This document shows, piece by piece, positions 465 to 34,097 of a stretch of 34,160 nt of DNA (position 1 is its first letter; each line of letters starts with the position of its first letter). The position numbers were made by a program, and so were the translations under genes. Below the pieces are notes generated by a model, which did not search any database, was not told the origin of the DNA, and saw only the letters and a list, made by a program, of their open reading frames with translations. The stretch is from assembly GCA_947649125.1 (NCBI GenBank), contig CANSQL010000027.1, forward strand, positions 1 through 34,160. The letters run 5' to 3'. The DNA is from an uncultured Erysipelotrichaceae bacterium (GTDB lineage: Bacteria > Bacillota_I > Bacilli_A > Erysipelotrichales > Erysipelotrichaceae).

Positions 465-515
465 GAGTAGGGTAAATTTAATTACCCTCTCACACCACCA
501 TGCATGCCGTTTTGC
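465..515 (-). ncRNA. Intron domain V/VI region
   Basis: On the minus strand the domain VI stem pairs GAG (491-489) with CTC (467-465) and GGGTAA (487-482) with TTACCC (475-470). This leaves A468 bulged 7 nt from the predicted intron 3' end, where the branch-point adenosine is expected. The preceding helix, CACCG against CATGGTG at roughly 492-519, is the likely catalytic domain V and overlaps the last codons of the maturase. Covariation has not been tested. Confidence 0.6.
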
Positions 516-1807
516 ACACGGTGTTCTATCAATTTCAAAGTATGTTGTTTCGTATAGTAATCTAGGCAACTGACTAATCCTTTTTGGGTTAGTTTTCTTT
601 TACTGATTGCTCTCACTACACATGTTTTCGTTACGACCCATTGATAGTGGTTTCCCATATAAGATGTCTGTCTTGCTAAATCTTTTCCGATTCCAAGTTT
701 CTGTAAGCCCCACTGCCTTTTGCTTGGCACTTTCCACTGCTTCCAGATTATCACTCGCAATCTTGTTCTCAAATGGGCATCTATCTTTTCCATATATGTT
801 TTCATATTACATATCGAAAAATAGTTTATCCACCCTCTGATTACTTGATTCAGCTTTCTGATTCTCTCTTCCATTTTCATAGAGTTTTTCCTTATCGTAA
901 GTCTTTTCAGTGCTTGTTTGAATTTCTTTACACTGCTTTCATGTGCTCGCAATTTCCATGTTTTCGTACTTTTATCGTAGTAGAATCCAAAGCCTAAATA
1001 CTTTAAATCATTAGGCTTCGTGATTCTCGTCTTTGTCATATTGACTTTTAATCCGAGTTTTCTTTCTATCCACGATGTTACACTGTACATCACTCGTTTG
1101 GCACTTGCTTCACTTTTTACTGTAATTACACAATCATCTGCGTATCTTGTGAAATGTAATCCTCGTCTTTCCAGTTCTTTATCCAATTCATTTAACAGAA
1201 TATTACTTAGCAGCGGTGATAAATTTCCACCTTGTGGTGTTCCTTTCTCGCTTTTTTCGTATTTTCCGTTTTCCATGATTCCCGCTTTCAAATATTTTCT
1301 GATTAACGATTCTGTATCTCCGTCATTTATGATGATGTGTACATAGCTCATCAGTTTGTCTTGCGGTATATTGTCAAAGAATTTCTCAAGGTCTATGTCT
1401 ACTATCCATAAATATCCATCATTGATATATTCTAATAGCTTCATGACTGCCATTTCACAACTTCTTTTTGGTCTAAATCCATAACTGCTTTCTGAAAAGT
1501 GTTCCTCACATATAGGACTTATTATCTGTACCATTGCTTGTTGAATAACTCTATCCATTACCGTTGGTATCCCTAGATTTCTTGTTCCGCCGTTCGGTTT
1601 TGGTATCTTTATTCTTTTCACCGGTTGTGGTCGATATGTCCTACTTACGATTTGTTTCTTGATACTTTTCCAGTTGTCTTTAATGTATTGATTCAGTTCC
1701 TCTACGCTCACTTCATCAATTCCTGCACTACCTTTATTGGCTTTTACCTTTTGGTATGCTTGGTTCATGTTTTCTCTGTCAAGTATCTTGTTTAATAACT
1801 CCGACAT
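482..1807 (-). CDS. ltrA: Group II intron reverse transcriptase/maturase (LtrA-like)
   Basis: The 441-residue protein splices its host intron and copies it into DNA at new sites. Reverse transcriptase motifs run from about residue 55 to 280: YGFRPKRSC near 109-117, GTPQGG at 189-194, and the catalytic YADD at 222-225. The maturase X domain follows, with GWINYF at 325-330 and a basic RLRVIIWKQWK segment. The chain ends without an HNH endonuclease domain, as in the endonuclease-less bacterial classes (C to F); mobility would then rely on nicked or single-stranded DNA targets. The start is supported by GGAGAGGAG upstream. The stop codon lies beside intron domain VI, so the gene's 3' end doubles as catalytic RNA. 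All key residues are intact and the frame is unbroken, so activity is plausible. Confidence 0.95.
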   Translation of the reverse strand: MSELLNKILDRENMNQAYQKVKANKGSAGIDEVSVEELNQYIKDNWKSIKKQIVSRTYRPQPVKRIKIPKPNGGTRNLGIPTVMDRVIQQAMVQIISPICEEHFSESSYGFRPKRSCEMAVMKLLEYINDGYLWIVDIDLEKFFDNIPQDKLMSYVHIIINDGDTESLIRKYLKAGIMENGKYEKSEKGTPQGGNLSPLLSNILLNELDKELERRGLHFTRYADDCVITVKSEASAKRVMYSVTSWIERKLGLKVNMTKTRITKPNDLKYLGFGFYYDKSTKTWKLRAHESSVKKFKQALKRLTIRKNSMKMEERIRKLNQVIRGWINYFSICNMKTYMEKIDAHLRTRLRVIIWKQWKVPSKRQWGLQKLGIGKDLARQTSYMGNHYQWVVTKTCVVRAISKRKLTQKGLVSCLDYYTKQHTLKLIEHRVQNGMHGGVRG

Positions 1808-2320
1808 ACTTTGTGTGCTCCTCTCCTTTCCGCTTTTCCATGATTTTTCCTACGTTTATGAGTTCTTGGCTTCATTTACGTTTCCGCTGTTTCTCTGTCG
1901 GACATTCATAGAAAACATACATTTGTGTTGCACGATTGATACGTTCGGTCCTTCAGTGCTTCCACCTACTATGACCTCTGCTGACTTCTCATTGTTCGTT
2001 GTTACTACTCCTCACTGCACGTCGTTCTACGTCTCGCTATTGAGCCAATGAGACCTCACGGGATAAGTCCGTATTCTTTCCTCGTCTACCCTCCTGATTT
2101 ACATACATGGGTTACGGCTATCTTTTGGGCTTCGTTGTTTCTTGCCAACTTGCCCGCCATATATGCCTTATTATCAGGTTTCTGTTCGTAGGGCTACGAT
2201 TTCGCTATGGCTTCTTCTCTCCCATACCTCGCGATATGAAACTTGCCAGTCGCTATTTAGTTCGTTGATAGCTACGCCTTTGTGGACTTCCACCACAGAA
2301 TACGGGCATGCCCGTCATAC

Positions 2321-25038: not shown

Positions 25039-26874
25039 TTATGCATTTGCATTCAGTACCTTCATAAATTCATCACCGGTAATCGTTTCTTTTTCATACA
25101 GATACTTCGCAAGCTCATGGAGTTTGTCTTTGTTTTCCTGTAATATCGTATATGCCCGCTCATGTGCTTCCTTAATCATACGCATCATCGCATCATCGAC
25201 CTTAGCCGCAGTATCCGAGGAGCACATCAGCGAGGTATCCTGTCCTAAATACTGATTATTCAGCGTTTCAAGCGCAACCATTCCGAATTCCTCACTCATA
25301 CCTAAGCGAGTAATCATTGCCCGAGCGATTTTCGTTGCCTGTTCGATATCGTTGGAAGCACCGCTTGTGATGCTGCGGAAAATCAGCTCCTCTGCCGCAC
25401 GTCCGCCGCAATAGGTAACGATACGCTCAAACGCTTCCTCTTTTGACATCAGATTGCTTTCCTGTTCCTCTACCTGCATCGTATAACCCAGTGCTCCCGA
25501 AGTTCTCGGGATAATTGTGATTTTATGCACCGGCGCAGTATTTTTCAGTTTTGCGGCAACAAGCGCATGACCGATCTCATGATAGGAAACGATCAGTTTT
25601 TCTCTTGTCGAAATGACCGCACCCTTGCGCTGATATCCGGCAATTACCGTTTCCACCGCCTCGTCAAAATCAGTTTGGGAAACAACACTGCGATCGTCCT
25701 TGACCGCCAACAGTGCCGCTTCATTCACAATATTCGCAAGCTCGGCACCACTGGCTCCCGCAGTCGCTCTCGCTATCGCATTAAAATCGATATTGGAACC
25801 GATTTTCACATCCTTCGCATGAACTCTTAAAATTGCCTCTCGCCCCTTTAAATCAGGCAGCTCTACAGGAATTCGACGATCAAAGCGCCCCGGCCTCAAC
25901 AATGCCGCATCCAAAGATTCCGGACGATTCGTTGCCGCTAATATCACAACACCTTTAGAACCGTCAAAGCCGTCCATTTCCGCCAACAGCTGATTTAACG
26001 TCTGTTCTCTTTCATCATTTCCGCTGAAACCGCCGCCGTCTCGCTTTTTACCGATCGTATCAATTTCATCGATAAATACGATACAAGGCGCTTTTTCTCG
26101 CGCCTGTTTAAACAGATCGCGCACTCTGGCAGCACCTCTGCCGACAAACATTTCCACGAATTCAGAGCCTGAAATGGAAAAAAACGGCACTCCGGCTTCT
26201 CCCGCCACTGCCTTCGCCAACAAGGTTTTACCGGTACCGGGAGGCCCTACCAAAAGCGCTCCCTTCGGCATCTGAGCACCTATTTTCTCATATTTCTTCG
26301 GATTCTTTAAAAAGTCGACCATTTCCAATAAGGCTTCCTTTGCCTCATCCTGTCCTGCCACATCGGAAAACCGCTTTCCGCTTTGCGGTTCCACATATAC
26401 CTGTGCATTTGCCTTTCCGAAGCTTCCCAAGCCTCCTCCGGTCCCAAACGTCATTCCGTCATTCCCCATTTTCTTTTGAATCCGTTTAAACATAAAATTG
26501 CCCAATCCCCACAACAACATCAACGGCAATAAAAATGTTAATAACGCACTGAAAAACGGATTGATTTCCTGCGGATAAATACGATTGAACCTTGCCTTTG
26601 CCTCAATCAGCTGTGAAGTCAAGCTCGGATCCTGCATATTCCCCGTATAATATTGACGTTTATTTTCATCATTCTTTAAGGTATAAGTAATCGTTTCATT
26701 TTCAACCTGTACCTCATCAATCTTTTTTTCCTTTAATGCGCTTTGAAACTCATTATAGCTTACCTCCTGCTGTCTTGTATGATACAAAAAGCCGGAAAAG
26801 AAGCTGTTTATCAAGATCATTACGATCATAATAATAAAATAGTAATAGTAAAGCGGTTTTTTCTTTTTATTCAT
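25039..26874 (-). CDS. ftsH: ATP-dependent zinc metalloprotease FtsH
   Basis: FtsH is a hexameric membrane AAA+ protease that removes damaged membrane proteins and some regulators. In 611 residues: two membrane helices (about 10-30 and 106-129) around an extracytoplasmic domain, Walker A GPPGTGKT at 210-217, Walker B FIDEID at 267-272, second region of homology with AATNRPESLDAALLRPGRFDRR about 314-335 (arginine fingers), and the zinc site HEIGH at 432-436. The C-terminal tail is short. AAAGG lies 8 nt before the ATG. In many Firmicutes ftsH follows tilS-hpt; here it stands alone with its own promoter and a small membrane gene behind it. Confidence 0.97.
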   Translation of the reverse strand: MNKKKKPLYYYYFIIMIVMILINSFFSGFLYHTRQQEVSYNEFQSALKEKKIDEVQVENETITYTLKNDENKRQYYTGNMQDPSLTSQLIEAKARFNRIYPQEINPFFSALLTFLLPLMLLWGLGNFMFKRIQKKMGNDGMTFGTGGGLGSFGKANAQVYVEPQSGKRFSDVAGQDEAKEALLEMVDFLKNPKKYEKIGAQMPKGALLVGPPGTGKTLLAKAVAGEAGVPFFSISGSEFVEMFVGRGAARVRDLFKQAREKAPCIVFIDEIDTIGKKRDGGGFSGNDEREQTLNQLLAEMDGFDGSKGVVILAATNRPESLDAALLRPGRFDRRIPVELPDLKGREAILRVHAKDVKIGSNIDFNAIARATAGASGAELANIVNEAALLAVKDDRSVVSQTDFDEAVETVIAGYQRKGAVISTREKLIVSYHEIGHALVAAKLKNTAPVHKITIIPRTSGALGYTMQVEEQESNLMSKEEAFERIVTYCGGRAAEELIFRSITSGASNDIEQATKIARAMITRLGMSEEFGMVALETLNNQYLGQDTSLMCSSDTAAKVDDAMMRMIKEAHERAYTILQENKDKLHELAKYLYEKETITGDEFMKVLNANA

Positions 26875-26990
26875 AAGTCAAGCCTTTCCTTTTCCCTGAT
26901 TGTTCAAATAATCATCGGGTTATTTTTTGACATCATTTGCTTCATAAGATGAAAGGATTTCATCATAAGTTTATATGCTGAATCCCGTTG

Positions 26991-27018
26991 ATTTTATTTC
27001 CTATCGTCAAGATATCAA
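26991..27018 (-). promoter_or_regulatory. ftsH promoter
   Basis: TTGATA (27013-27018), 16 bp, TAAAAT (26991-26996) on the minus strand, each 5 of 6 to consensus. The leader to the ATG is about 110 nt. Confidence 0.65.
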
Positions 27019-27034
27019 GGTATATCATATACCT
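27018..27034. promoter_or_regulatory. Perfect palindrome abutting the ftsH -35 (candidate operator)
   Basis: AGGTATAT-C-ATATACCT is an 8+1+8 inverted repeat touching the -35 hexamer. It is neither a CIRCE element (TTAGCACTC-N9-GAGTGCTAA) nor a CtsR heptad repeat, so a different regulator would be involved. Confidence 0.55.
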
Positions 27035-27129
27035 GTTAATTATGTTGTTCAAGTGGTTTTCATAAATACCATAATTTTACACATTCCCGTTATTATTACC
27101 TACACTGCTTTCATTAATTGATTGAAGCG

Positions 27130-27236: not shown

Positions 27237-27265
27237 TTGATTTTTTATCCAATATTAGCTATAAT
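27237..27265 (+). promoter_or_regulatory. Promoter of the small RNA
   Basis: TTGATT (27237-27242), 17 bp, perfect TATAAT (27260-27265) on the plus strand; transcription should start at about 27271-27273. Confidence 0.8.
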
Positions 27266-27270
27266 ATAAA

Positions 27271-27381
27271 ATGTCAATGGTCATCCTTGTATTTCCACCT
27301 CCATTGACGATTCATAGGTGGAAATCTATTTCTAATTATCCCAGGTGAAAGGCCCGATTCCAATCTCGGGCTTTTCATTTT
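27271..27381 (+). ncRNA. Unrecognised small RNA with H-type pseudoknot and anti-Shine-Dalgarno segment
   Basis: This is a free-standing transcription unit of about 110 nt with its own promoter and intrinsic terminator. Two perfect helices interleave. S1 is GTCAATGG (27273-27280) with CCATTGAC (27301-27308). S2 is ATTTCCACCT (27291-27300) with AGGTGGAAAT (27316-27325). Loop 1 is 10 nt, no base separates the stems at the junction, and loop 3 is 7 nt: a sterically reasonable H-type pseudoknot, or else two mutually exclusive hairpins. CACCTCC (27296-27302), complementary to a Shine-Dalgarno GGAGGTG, spans the stem junction. A second partial partner AGGTGAAA (27343-27350) could compete for S2. No plus-strand gene follows, so it is not an evident riboswitch. 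I do not recognise the family; it does not look like 6S, SRP, tmRNA or RNase P RNA. Confidence 0.7.
27348..27376 (+). terminator. Intrinsic terminator of the small RNA
   Basis: AAAGGCCCGA (27348-27357) pairs with TCGGGCTTTT (27366-27375) with one G-U, 8-nt loop, then CATTTTG. The GC-rich core plus T-run on the plus strand is convincing. Confidence 0.85.
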
Positions 27382-27552: not shown

Positions 27553-28116
27553 TTAATGCTCAGTATCGAAATAAACATCCTGACGGATATTTACACTTCC
27601 CTGAAGAACTGCACCCTTTTGAATTTCAATATCGCGCGCTGTCAAGTTTCCGACCAATGCGGCCTTATCCTCAAAGGTTGCGGATTCTGCGGCATTGACA
27701 TCACCCTTGATACGTCCACCGCATACGACATTCATCGCCTCACAATTTCCTGCGACAGTAGCTGTAACGCTTAGATGTAAATCACCGGTACAATTAATAT
27801 CGCCGGTTACGATTGCGTTATCTAAATCAACATCACACGTCGTGATATTTCCGTCTACCACACCGGTAACCTTGATTTTATTTTGGCAGGTGATATCACC
27901 CTGCACCTCACCCTGTATTACTAAATCACCGGCTACCTCAACCGTCCCGACAATTCTTGCGCCCTTACCGATTACCGTCGGCTCCAACGCTTCCTGCTGG
28001 TTCATTTGCGGTTCATAGCGATGCTGCTCATTGTTTACCACATTGCGCATACGCTCATTGGGATTGTTATAGCCTTGATTGCGATTGTAATATTCTCTGT
28101 CATCATTGTAGTTCAT
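27553..28116 (-). CDS. Bactofilin
   Basis: Bactofilins polymerise without nucleotides into cytoskeletal filaments that guide cell shape, wall synthesis or polarity. The 187-residue protein has an Asn/Tyr/Arg-rich disordered N-terminus (1-45). A right-handed beta-helix of hydrophobic repeats follows (about 47-180): VIGKGARIVGTVEVAGDLVI, VQGDITCQNKIKVTGVVDGN, then GNCEAMNVVCGGRIKGDVNA. The motif GxVxGxIxA recurs as in the DUF583 family. There is no membrane segment. GGAGG lies 7 nt before the ATG; promoter and terminator frame a single-gene unit. Its wall-enzyme partners elsewhere in the window (GH73, GH3) are not adjacent. Confidence 0.92.
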   Translation of the reverse strand: MNYNDDREYYNRNQGYNNPNERMRNVVNNEQHRYEPQMNQQEALEPTVIGKGARIVGTVEVAGDLVIQGEVQGDITCQNKIKVTGVVDGNITTCDVDLDNAIVTGDINCTGDLHLSVTATVAGNCEAMNVVCGGRIKGDVNAAESATFEDKAALVGNLTARDIEIQKGAVLQGSVNIRQDVYFDTEH

Positions 28117-31749: not shown

Positions 31750-34097
31750 TTATTCAGAAATACGATCCATCTTTTTGAAAAATATGAATATCGCACCCAA
31801 TAACAGATAAATAACAATATTGCTGCCGGATTCCCGTGCACCGGTATTGGTGATCGGATTATTTTTATCTTTCTTTGTTGTCTCATCATTACCCTGATTA
31901 TTGTCCGTTTCGTCTTTTGGAGGTTTGTTTGGATTGTTATCGGTATCATCTTTTTTGTTGCTTACCAATGCTTTGATTGCCTGATTCAACAGATCCACCT
32001 GATGATTAATTTCAGCTTGAGTAACGTTCATATCCGACAACAGCGCTTCGGCCTTTTCCACTTCAGCCATGAGCAACTGATAACTTTCAGCAGTATAATC
32101 ATCAGCAGAAATTGCCTTTGCCTCTTCTATTTTGTTTTTCAATACAGTAAAGTCTAATGTTTTGGAATGATAGGTCAGACCATATCCTCGTTTATACACA
32201 ATTTGATCGGAATAGCTGGTACCTTCTAATTTCGGTATGCTGACCGGAAGTTTTCCGCTTGCCCCAAATACACCTAGAGTAACTTCAATACCTGCAATGA
32301 TATTCGGACCATAGGCAGCTTCAGAACCTGTAACACCGCCCACTATAGCCTCTGTTACATCAACAGAAGATCCTTTACATCCATACACCGCCATAATTGC
32401 ATCAGCTTTGTCATAAAATTGAACATCGTATGGTTTGTCCACAGAAATTACGATTGCAGTTTTACCATTGTCTTTTGCATAGTTTACAAATGTATCCGGA
32501 CCTGCATAGAGCCAATGATTGCCTGTTACTCTGGAAACATTTGATATTTCTGAATGGACAATGATGGTATCTGCCCAATCAATATCAGCCTGCACAGCTG
32601 CCGGATCTGCCAGATCTGCATTTGAGAAGCGAACAACCTTTACTTCTGCACCTGCCGGAATCAAGCCGGCTTCTTTGGCTCTGTTCCATCCCATGATCAT
32701 TTGTGCTTTTTCATTATCATAAGGACACATCATTAATACTTTACTATTTTCTGTAACGTTTAAAGGAAGTACTTCATTTTCATTTTTTACAACTGTAACT
32801 GCCTTTGCTGCGATTTCTCTTTCCAGCTCACGATTTGCTTGACTGCCGACAACAGCTTTTGCTTGATCAAGAGAATAGTTCTTTTCATTCCAATCAAGAA
32901 TACCGCGATTTTCTTTTACAGTTAAGATTCTCCTTACCGCGTCATTCAAACGTTCTTCAGAGATTTCGCCGTTGTTCACTGCAGTTTCTACACCGTTAAT
33001 AATCGCATCCAAATCCTGCAAATCGTCTAAATCATACAATACGCAAGGCATACAAATCATATCCACACCTGCGTTGATTGCCAATTTTACAGCCTGTACC
33101 TGATCATATGCAGCGGATACGCCCGCCATATTCATCGCATCGGTACATACGATACCCTCAAAGCCCATTTCACCTTTCAGTAAGTCGGTAATAATTGCTT
33201 TGGACATCGTTGCCGGCAGTTTTTCCTGATTTCCTGTTTTATCAGATAACACAGTACTGTTATCTAACTGCGGGTATAGAATATGAGCGGTCATAATCAT
33301 TTCAATTCCTTGATCGATCGCAACTTCATATGGTTTCAATTCGTTCTGCAGTAAAACATCTTTTGATTTATCTACAGAAGGAAGCCCATAATGAGAATCT
33401 GTGGCAGTATCTCCATGTCCGGGGAAATGCTTTGCACATCCGATAACATTATATTCTGCAAGACCCTGAATAGTCTTAGATGCCATTTCACCGACCATGG
33501 CAGCATCATCACCATAAGATCTTAAACCAATCACCGGATTATTCGCATTGTTATTTACATCCACCACCGGTGCCAAATTGGTATTAATACCAAGAACGCT
33601 TAATTCACTGCCGATGATCTGACCGGCATTTCTGGCATATTCGCTGTTCCATGTCGCACCCAATGCCATATTACCCGGAAGCGCCGTTCCTGAGCCTAAG
33701 CGGTATACAGAGCCTCCTTCTTGATCTGCTGAGATAAGCAATGGAATACCGTTGTCTTTTGTAGCAGCTTTTTGAAGATCCATTGATAATTGAAACGTAT
33801 CTTCCGTTGTTTGAATATTTTGGGCAAAATAAATAATTGCGCCGAAATCATAATCTTCGACTATTTTTGAACCTGCGCATTCATTTTGGTGAACGGCTGC
33901 TTCTCCACACTATCAGTGGTATCTTCATCCCAATAACGGAAATCCACCATTAACATTTGCGTGATTTTCTGACGCAAAGTCATGCGATTTAGCATGTCCT
34001 CAACACGATTACTTGCTTTTACATTGACTGTAACAACTGTTGAACACATGGCAAAGGCCATCATCAGCAATCCTGCTTTTTTACATAGATTTTTCAT
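31750..34097 (-). pseudogene. Wall-anchored GH3 beta-N-acetylhexosaminidase, disrupted by a 1-nt frameshift
   Basis: Two frames (34097-33861 and 33870-31750) make one secreted glycosidase of about 780 residues. The first has a signal peptide (KKAGLLMMAFAMCSTVVTV) and the GH3 opening MTLRQKITQMLMVDFRYWDED. It stops at a TAG after an A5 run, while the next frame reads on as IVEDYDFGAIIYFAQNIQ. The GH3 core shows KHFPGHGDTATDSHYGLPS, the NagZ-type His/Asp general acid-base loop, and CTDAMNMAG with the nucleophile Asp. A FIVAR-like helical repeat, a disordered Asn/Asp/Lys/Pro spacer, and a sorting signal (PITNTGARES, hydrophobic stretch, KK tail) follow. The expected LPxTG is instead ITNTG. AGGAAG precedes the ATG. 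It probably acts on peptidoglycan or host N-acetylglucosamine glycans if intact. Confidence 0.85.

Follow-up and report, generated by a model that had tools for sequence, protein, structure and literature searches.

A probable C-rich small RNA gene beside ftsH in one Erysipelotrichaceae genus, with a predicted H-type pseudoknot in two species

We sought to determine whether the gap between an ftsH gene and a bactofilin gene in a draft Erysipelotrichaceae genome (G000) encodes a small RNA (sRNA) of its own, and what the two interleaved stems found there might do. The window, i.e., the whole stretch of DNA analysed, is contig 27 of this genome (34,160 nucleotides). A preliminary description of it had proposed a free-standing sRNA with an H-type pseudoknot and an anti-Shine-Dalgarno segment. 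The elements on which that proposal rested (TTGATT-17-TATAAT, interleaved stems of 8 and 10 bp, CACCTCC at their junction, and an intrinsic terminator) were recomputed and are all present (Table 1). Since ftsH is divergent from the sRNA gene and the bactofilin gene is convergent with it, the sRNA is not the leader of a downstream gene, in agreement with the gene-free context noted earlier. The sRNA gene has one copy in G000, and relatives of the bactofilin gene are found in Erysipelotrichales isolates and metagenome-assembled genomes. Six relatives (G001–G006) were compared at the locus. The sRNA unit was found in G002, G003, G005, and G006 as well as in G000; in G001 it was not judgeable because the contig begins inside ftsH. 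On the ftsH side of the gap, the blocks GGTATATCATATACCTGTTA and AAATACCATAATTTTACACATTCCC are near-identical in G000, G002, G005, and G006, and are perhaps a regulatory site of ftsH.

Table 1. Features of the putative sRNA gene and of other parts of the window
Feature	Position	Strand	Remarks
Promoter match, sigma-70-type, TTGATT-17-TATAAT	27237-27265	+	TTGATT 27237-27242, TATAAT 27260-27265; similar hexamers at the equivalent place in G002, G003, G005, and G006
Predicted small RNA, ~110 nt	27272-27381	+	97% identity in G002; diverged units at the equivalent locus in G003, G005, and G006
S1 5' strand, GUCAAUGG (DNA GTCAATGG)	27273-27280	+	5'-end stem recurs in all five RNAs with other sequences
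Loop 1, UCAUCCUUGU	27281-27290	+	One G000/G002 difference, C27282T
S2 5' strand, AUUUCCACCU (DNA ATTTCCACCT)	27291-27300	+	G000 and G002 only
CACCUCC, anti-Shine-Dalgarno-like	27296-27302	+	Every base pairs in the predicted pseudoknot; G003, G005, and G006 do not conserve it
S1 3' strand, CCAUUGAC (DNA CCATTGAC)	27301-27308	+	S1 has 8 bp, perfect
Loop 3, GAUUCAU	27309-27315	+	Predicted fold
S2 3' strand, AGGUGGAAAU (DNA AGGTGGAAAT)	27316-27325	+	S2 has 10 bp, perfect
Single-stranded linker (predicted)	27326-27342	+	3' end UCCC 27339-27342; CCC and UCCC excess over three lineages
Intrinsic terminator, 15 pairs	27343-27380	+	Loop 27358-27365; in G005/G006 both partners are changed in two pairs
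ftsH	25039-26874	-	Divergent from sRNA gene
ftsH promoter, TTGAAC-17-TATGAT	27052-27024	-
ftsH promoter/leader with near-identical blocks	26990-27100
Bactofilin gene	27553-28116	-	Convergent with sRNA gene
Group II intron	482-2238	-	Reverse transcriptase/maturase ORF at 482-1807; Rfam group-II D1D4 matches at 1948-2024 and 2068-2238
Glycoside-hydrolase-like (beta-N-acetylhexosaminidase-like) gene	31750-34097	-	ORFs 31750-33783 and 33861-34097 read as one gene, the split of which would be a frameshift or assembly error, with no stop between the two frames

The promoter match is weak on its own, because the scan found seven promoter-like sites where 5.4 were expected. The RNA would start near 27272, which places the end of the terminator ~108 nt downstream. 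Conservation between G000 and G002 follows these boundaries: the sRNA is identical at 107 of 110 positions, while identity is 80% in the upstream flank and 55-75% in the downstream flank. Expressed as substitutions, there are 3 in the 110 bases of the sRNA, 63 in 345 aligned bases upstream, and 36 in 141 downstream (Fisher p = 9e-6 and 3e-7 for the sRNA against its flanks), and these counts support purifying selection on the sRNA. All three changes fall on unpaired positions, one in loop 1 and two in the terminator loop (T27359A and A27363T); as 40% of positions are unpaired, this placement alone has p = 0.06. The sRNA has a folding z of -4.6 with the pseudoknot not counted, and no ORF is conserved. 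We regard it as highly probable, from these sequence data, that the locus holds a real sRNA gene. The earlier claim of a free-standing gene thus stands: it has its own promoter and terminator, lacks an Rfam match, and is under purifying selection.

Next, we evaluated the two interleaved stems by searching for H-type pseudoknots that form at least 16 perfect pairs in no more than 60 nt. Only one exists in the 34-kb window (the minus-strand match is the same site), and no match was obtained in shuffles of either the 70-nt core (0/3000) or the intergenic region (0/300), so the description of the two stems as unlikely by chance is borne out. The inner strands of S1 and S2 directly adjoin, leaving no intervening base, and the interleaved stems span 53 nt. 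The best nested fold of the G000 5' region contains S2 without S1 (-13.5 kcal/mol), and S1 alone reaches -10.0. The stacking energies are -14.1 kcal/mol for S1 and -18.3 kcal/mol for S2, a total of -32.4, and the penalty for a pseudoknot is ~9-10 kcal/mol; thus the closed pseudoknot is expected to be the stable form in G000. In this predicted closed form CACCUCC is paired throughout, and loop 1, loop 3, and the linker with its UCCC are single-stranded. The hiding and exposing of CACCUCC, as first proposed, would therefore require something that opens S2. The sequences of S1 and S2 are the same in G000 and G002, and because of this identity S2 lies beyond a covariation test. It is likely that the pseudoknot forms in this species pair.

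A sequence-diverged RNA gene lies at the equivalent place, divergent from ftsH, in G003, G005, and G006. In G005 and G006 the unit is in the ftsH-bactofilin gap and has promoter-like hexamers. Its 5'-end stem has 12 bp (UUGUUAAAUGGY/GCCAUUUAACAG), the C-rich loop of G006 reads UUAUCCCUAUCCCUAAACC, and its terminator combines a shared outer sequence (GAAAGGCC/GGCUUUUC) with two swapped inner pairs, which is covariation. The G003 unit is shorter, with the promoter TTGATA-17-TACAAT, a stem UGUCGAUG/CAUCGACA followed by a T run, an inner stem UACUGCC/GGCAGUA, and the loop UUUCUUCCCCCACCCAAUU; the only bactofilin-like match in G003 is a distant paralogue. No RNA unit was found beside ftsH in G004, which has a different gene upstream of ftsH. 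In that genome, bactofilin and ftsH lie ~10 kb apart on one contig (C42; L048/L066), and rubrerythrin-like and Fur-like genes adjoin bactofilin.

All five RNAs have a stem from the first transcribed bases, unpaired C-rich stretches, and a 3' stem followed by T. The 5'-end stem has shuffle p values of ~0.013, 1e-4, and 0.011 in the three lineages, and the stems GUCAAUGG, GUCGAUG, and GUUAAAUGG share their position and resemble one another in sequence. Since their arms cannot be aligned base by base, we note this stem as a recurring feature and do not count it as covariation. The C-rich unpaired stretches, present in 5/5 RNAs, show an excess of CCC (p = 0.002) and of UCCC (p = 0.014), and the single UCCC of G000 could by itself be due to chance. 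S2, the pseudoknot, and CACCTCC are absent from G003, G005, and G006 and are found in G000 and G002 only. The part of the preliminary description that concerned the pseudoknot and CACCTCC consequently holds for one species pair and fails in the other three species, in which the 5'-terminal stem, the C-rich loops, and the terminator persist.

Searches were then extended beyond the genus. An Rfam 15 scan of the G000 RNA, a check proposed along with the original description, gave no match at the gathering threshold, and relaxed thresholds gave nothing near the gathering score for G003 or G006 (both strands for G006). Phage, plasmid, and viral collections returned short AT-rich matches or none. 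BLAST and a covariance model built from G005/G006, applied to up to 273 genomes of the family, gave notable matches in the same genus only; in G000 and G002 the model matches only the terminator part. The regions upstream of ftsH in eleven species outside the genus showed no comparable unit. As read from these sequences, the unit is tied to ftsH, genus-limited as far as seen, and fast-evolving, and very likely a real sRNA gene. The idea of a new regulatory RNA family survives as a genus-limited family at one locus, of which the pseudoknot and CACCTCC are not general features. In a search of the literature, essentially no studies of sRNAs in Erysipelotrichaceae turned up.

For the function, we favour a trans-acting base-pairing regulator of the C-rich, UCCC type with a protected 5' end, to which we assign a probability of about 0.6. 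Transcription would run from ~27272 to the terminator at ~27380, and the 5' end would be locked in S1 at its first nucleotides, reinforced in G000 and G002 by S2 into the H-type pseudoknot. Such a locked end should shield the RNA from 5'-3' exonuclease. The UCCC of the linker, in the modelled fold the likeliest exposed seed, and perhaps AUCCUU in loop 1 would start pairing with the Shine-Dalgarno regions of targets, whereupon ribosome loading would be blocked or mRNA stability altered. CACCUCC would join this pairing only if S2 opens.

This reading has parallels in other Gram-positive bacteria. Gram-positive sRNAs, those of staphylococci among them, usually bind Shine-Dalgarno sequences through unpaired C-rich (UCCC) motifs (PMC3961350, PMC9410917, PMC5826253, PMC8383071), RNAIII depends on its first stem-loop for stability (PMC8383071), and RoxS uses several C-rich regions (PMC5419742). 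The RNA described here resembles RsaA and IsrR of Staphylococcus and RoxS of Bacillus in being free-standing, in ending at an intrinsic terminator, and in its unpaired C-rich stretches, for which Shine-Dalgarno or other G-rich sequences of mRNAs are the proposed or demonstrated partners in those RNAs (PMC3961350, PMC9410917, PMC5419742). It differs from them in its locus, in the lack of a sequence or Rfam match, and in that its most anti-Shine-Dalgarno-like stretch is buried in the predicted pseudoknot. The streptococcal csRNAs, found through CiaR promoters, are likewise short, sequence-diverse, intergenic RNAs with stem-loops (PMC3091779). They carry stretches complementary to translation starts. 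Here, CACCUCC is complementary to a Shine-Dalgarno sequence but paired in the predicted fold, and the linker UCCC is unpaired. Streptococci have two to six such genes and G000 has one. Membership in the csRNAs was rejected: the CiaR promoter repeat TTTAAG-N5-TTTAAG is absent within 3 mismatches in G000 and G002, and the matches elsewhere are no more than degenerate. Pseudoknots are known or predicted in the trans-encoded sRNAs RydC of Salmonella, where the pseudoknot is located at the 5' end together with the seed, and RsaOG/RsaI of S. aureus (PMC8383071, PMC5826253), which this RNA resembles in outline. RsaOG is tied to a CcpA site; the present RNA has no convincing cre site and no Rfam match. 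Nor was any convincing cre, Fur, Rex, CtsR, PerR, or CiaR box found at the sRNA promoter.

To look for targets, a duplex model that ignores accessibility was applied to 358 gene starts (the window and 400 kb more of G000). Perfect and one-mismatch matches to GGAGGTGGAAAT were not above the reversed control, and few lay at ribosome-binding sites; dedicated targets with long anti-Shine-Dalgarno pairing were accordingly rejected. A cold-shock mRNA tried as partner of the G005/G006 RNA did no better than shuffles, and no target conserved between lineages was found in the screened gene starts. A 16S-tail pattern had no match in the G000 draft genome.

These results bear on two other ways in which the RNA could work. 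If the pseudoknot is a conditional switch, the closed S2 hides CACCUCC until a protein, an mRNA, or changed conditions open it, and the freed segment acts as a 16S mimic or as a blocker of Shine-Dalgarno sequences. That CACCUCC belongs both to the end of S2 and to the start of S1 fits this proposal, and the order of the strands implies that S1 can precede S2 during transcription and leave the site briefly open. However, the closed form is stable by the stacking energies of both stems, three of the five species lack the site as well as S2, and long matches at ribosome-binding sites are not in excess; we therefore consider a switch unlikely. If true, a locked CACCUCC released on a signal would make an ordinary C-rich sRNA a conditional blocker of translation initiation. 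Silencing of one or a few specific genes, such as an IS1182-like transposase or the neighbouring bactofilin, is doubtful as well. The linker region 27326-27344 pairs with the transposase mRNA from the Shine-Dalgarno sequence to the start codon at -24.6 kcal/mol, and the second-best of the 358 gene starts reaches -17.3, but the gene is absent from G002 even though the G002 linker is identical, and shuffled linkers reach -24.6 in 1/150 trials, with several segments tried. We rejected this candidate as a strong but unconserved pairing. The bactofilin start pairs with 27281-27302 (20 pairs, one 7-nt bulge) and is the best of the 28 window genes, yet its rank with the longer segments is no better than 5-11 among the 358 starts of G000. 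In G006 its rank is 9-33 among 165, and this candidate was likewise rejected. The transposase itself has two copies in G000 and one in G003 that is 96% identical (L132:36-974, G000:C17:45096-45587, and G003:C26:19866-20357, all on the minus strand), and none was found in G001, G002, G004, G005, or G006; this patchy presence and high identity suggest recent movement.

Two further explanations dispense with a regulatory RNA. Inverted repeats look alike in DNA and RNA, and the interleaved repeats could be protein-binding sites with no functional RNA. Their position between a promoter and a conserved, covarying terminator argues against this, as does the persistence of the unit with different stem sequences in other species, which a fixed binding site would not show; such a DNA element is very improbable. 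A short peptide gene would be a leaderless frame of 25 codons from 27271 (MSMVILVFPPPLTIHRWKSISNYPR), whose ATG coincides with the putative RNA start and whose one G000/G002 change is silent. The frame has no ribosome-binding site, stops after ~10-12 codons in G005 and G006, and is unrelated in G003, so that we give this explanation hardly any credence.

In conclusion, the RNA probably belongs to the well-known C-rich regulatory RNAs, as a member confined to this genus, and the predicted pseudoknot is its own variation on that known kind. The locus provides a well-delimited sRNA gene in common gut bacteria, whose position next to ftsH persists as its sequence and fold change between species. 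It thus offers a natural series for how C-rich sRNAs may gain or lose a seed-masking pseudoknot.
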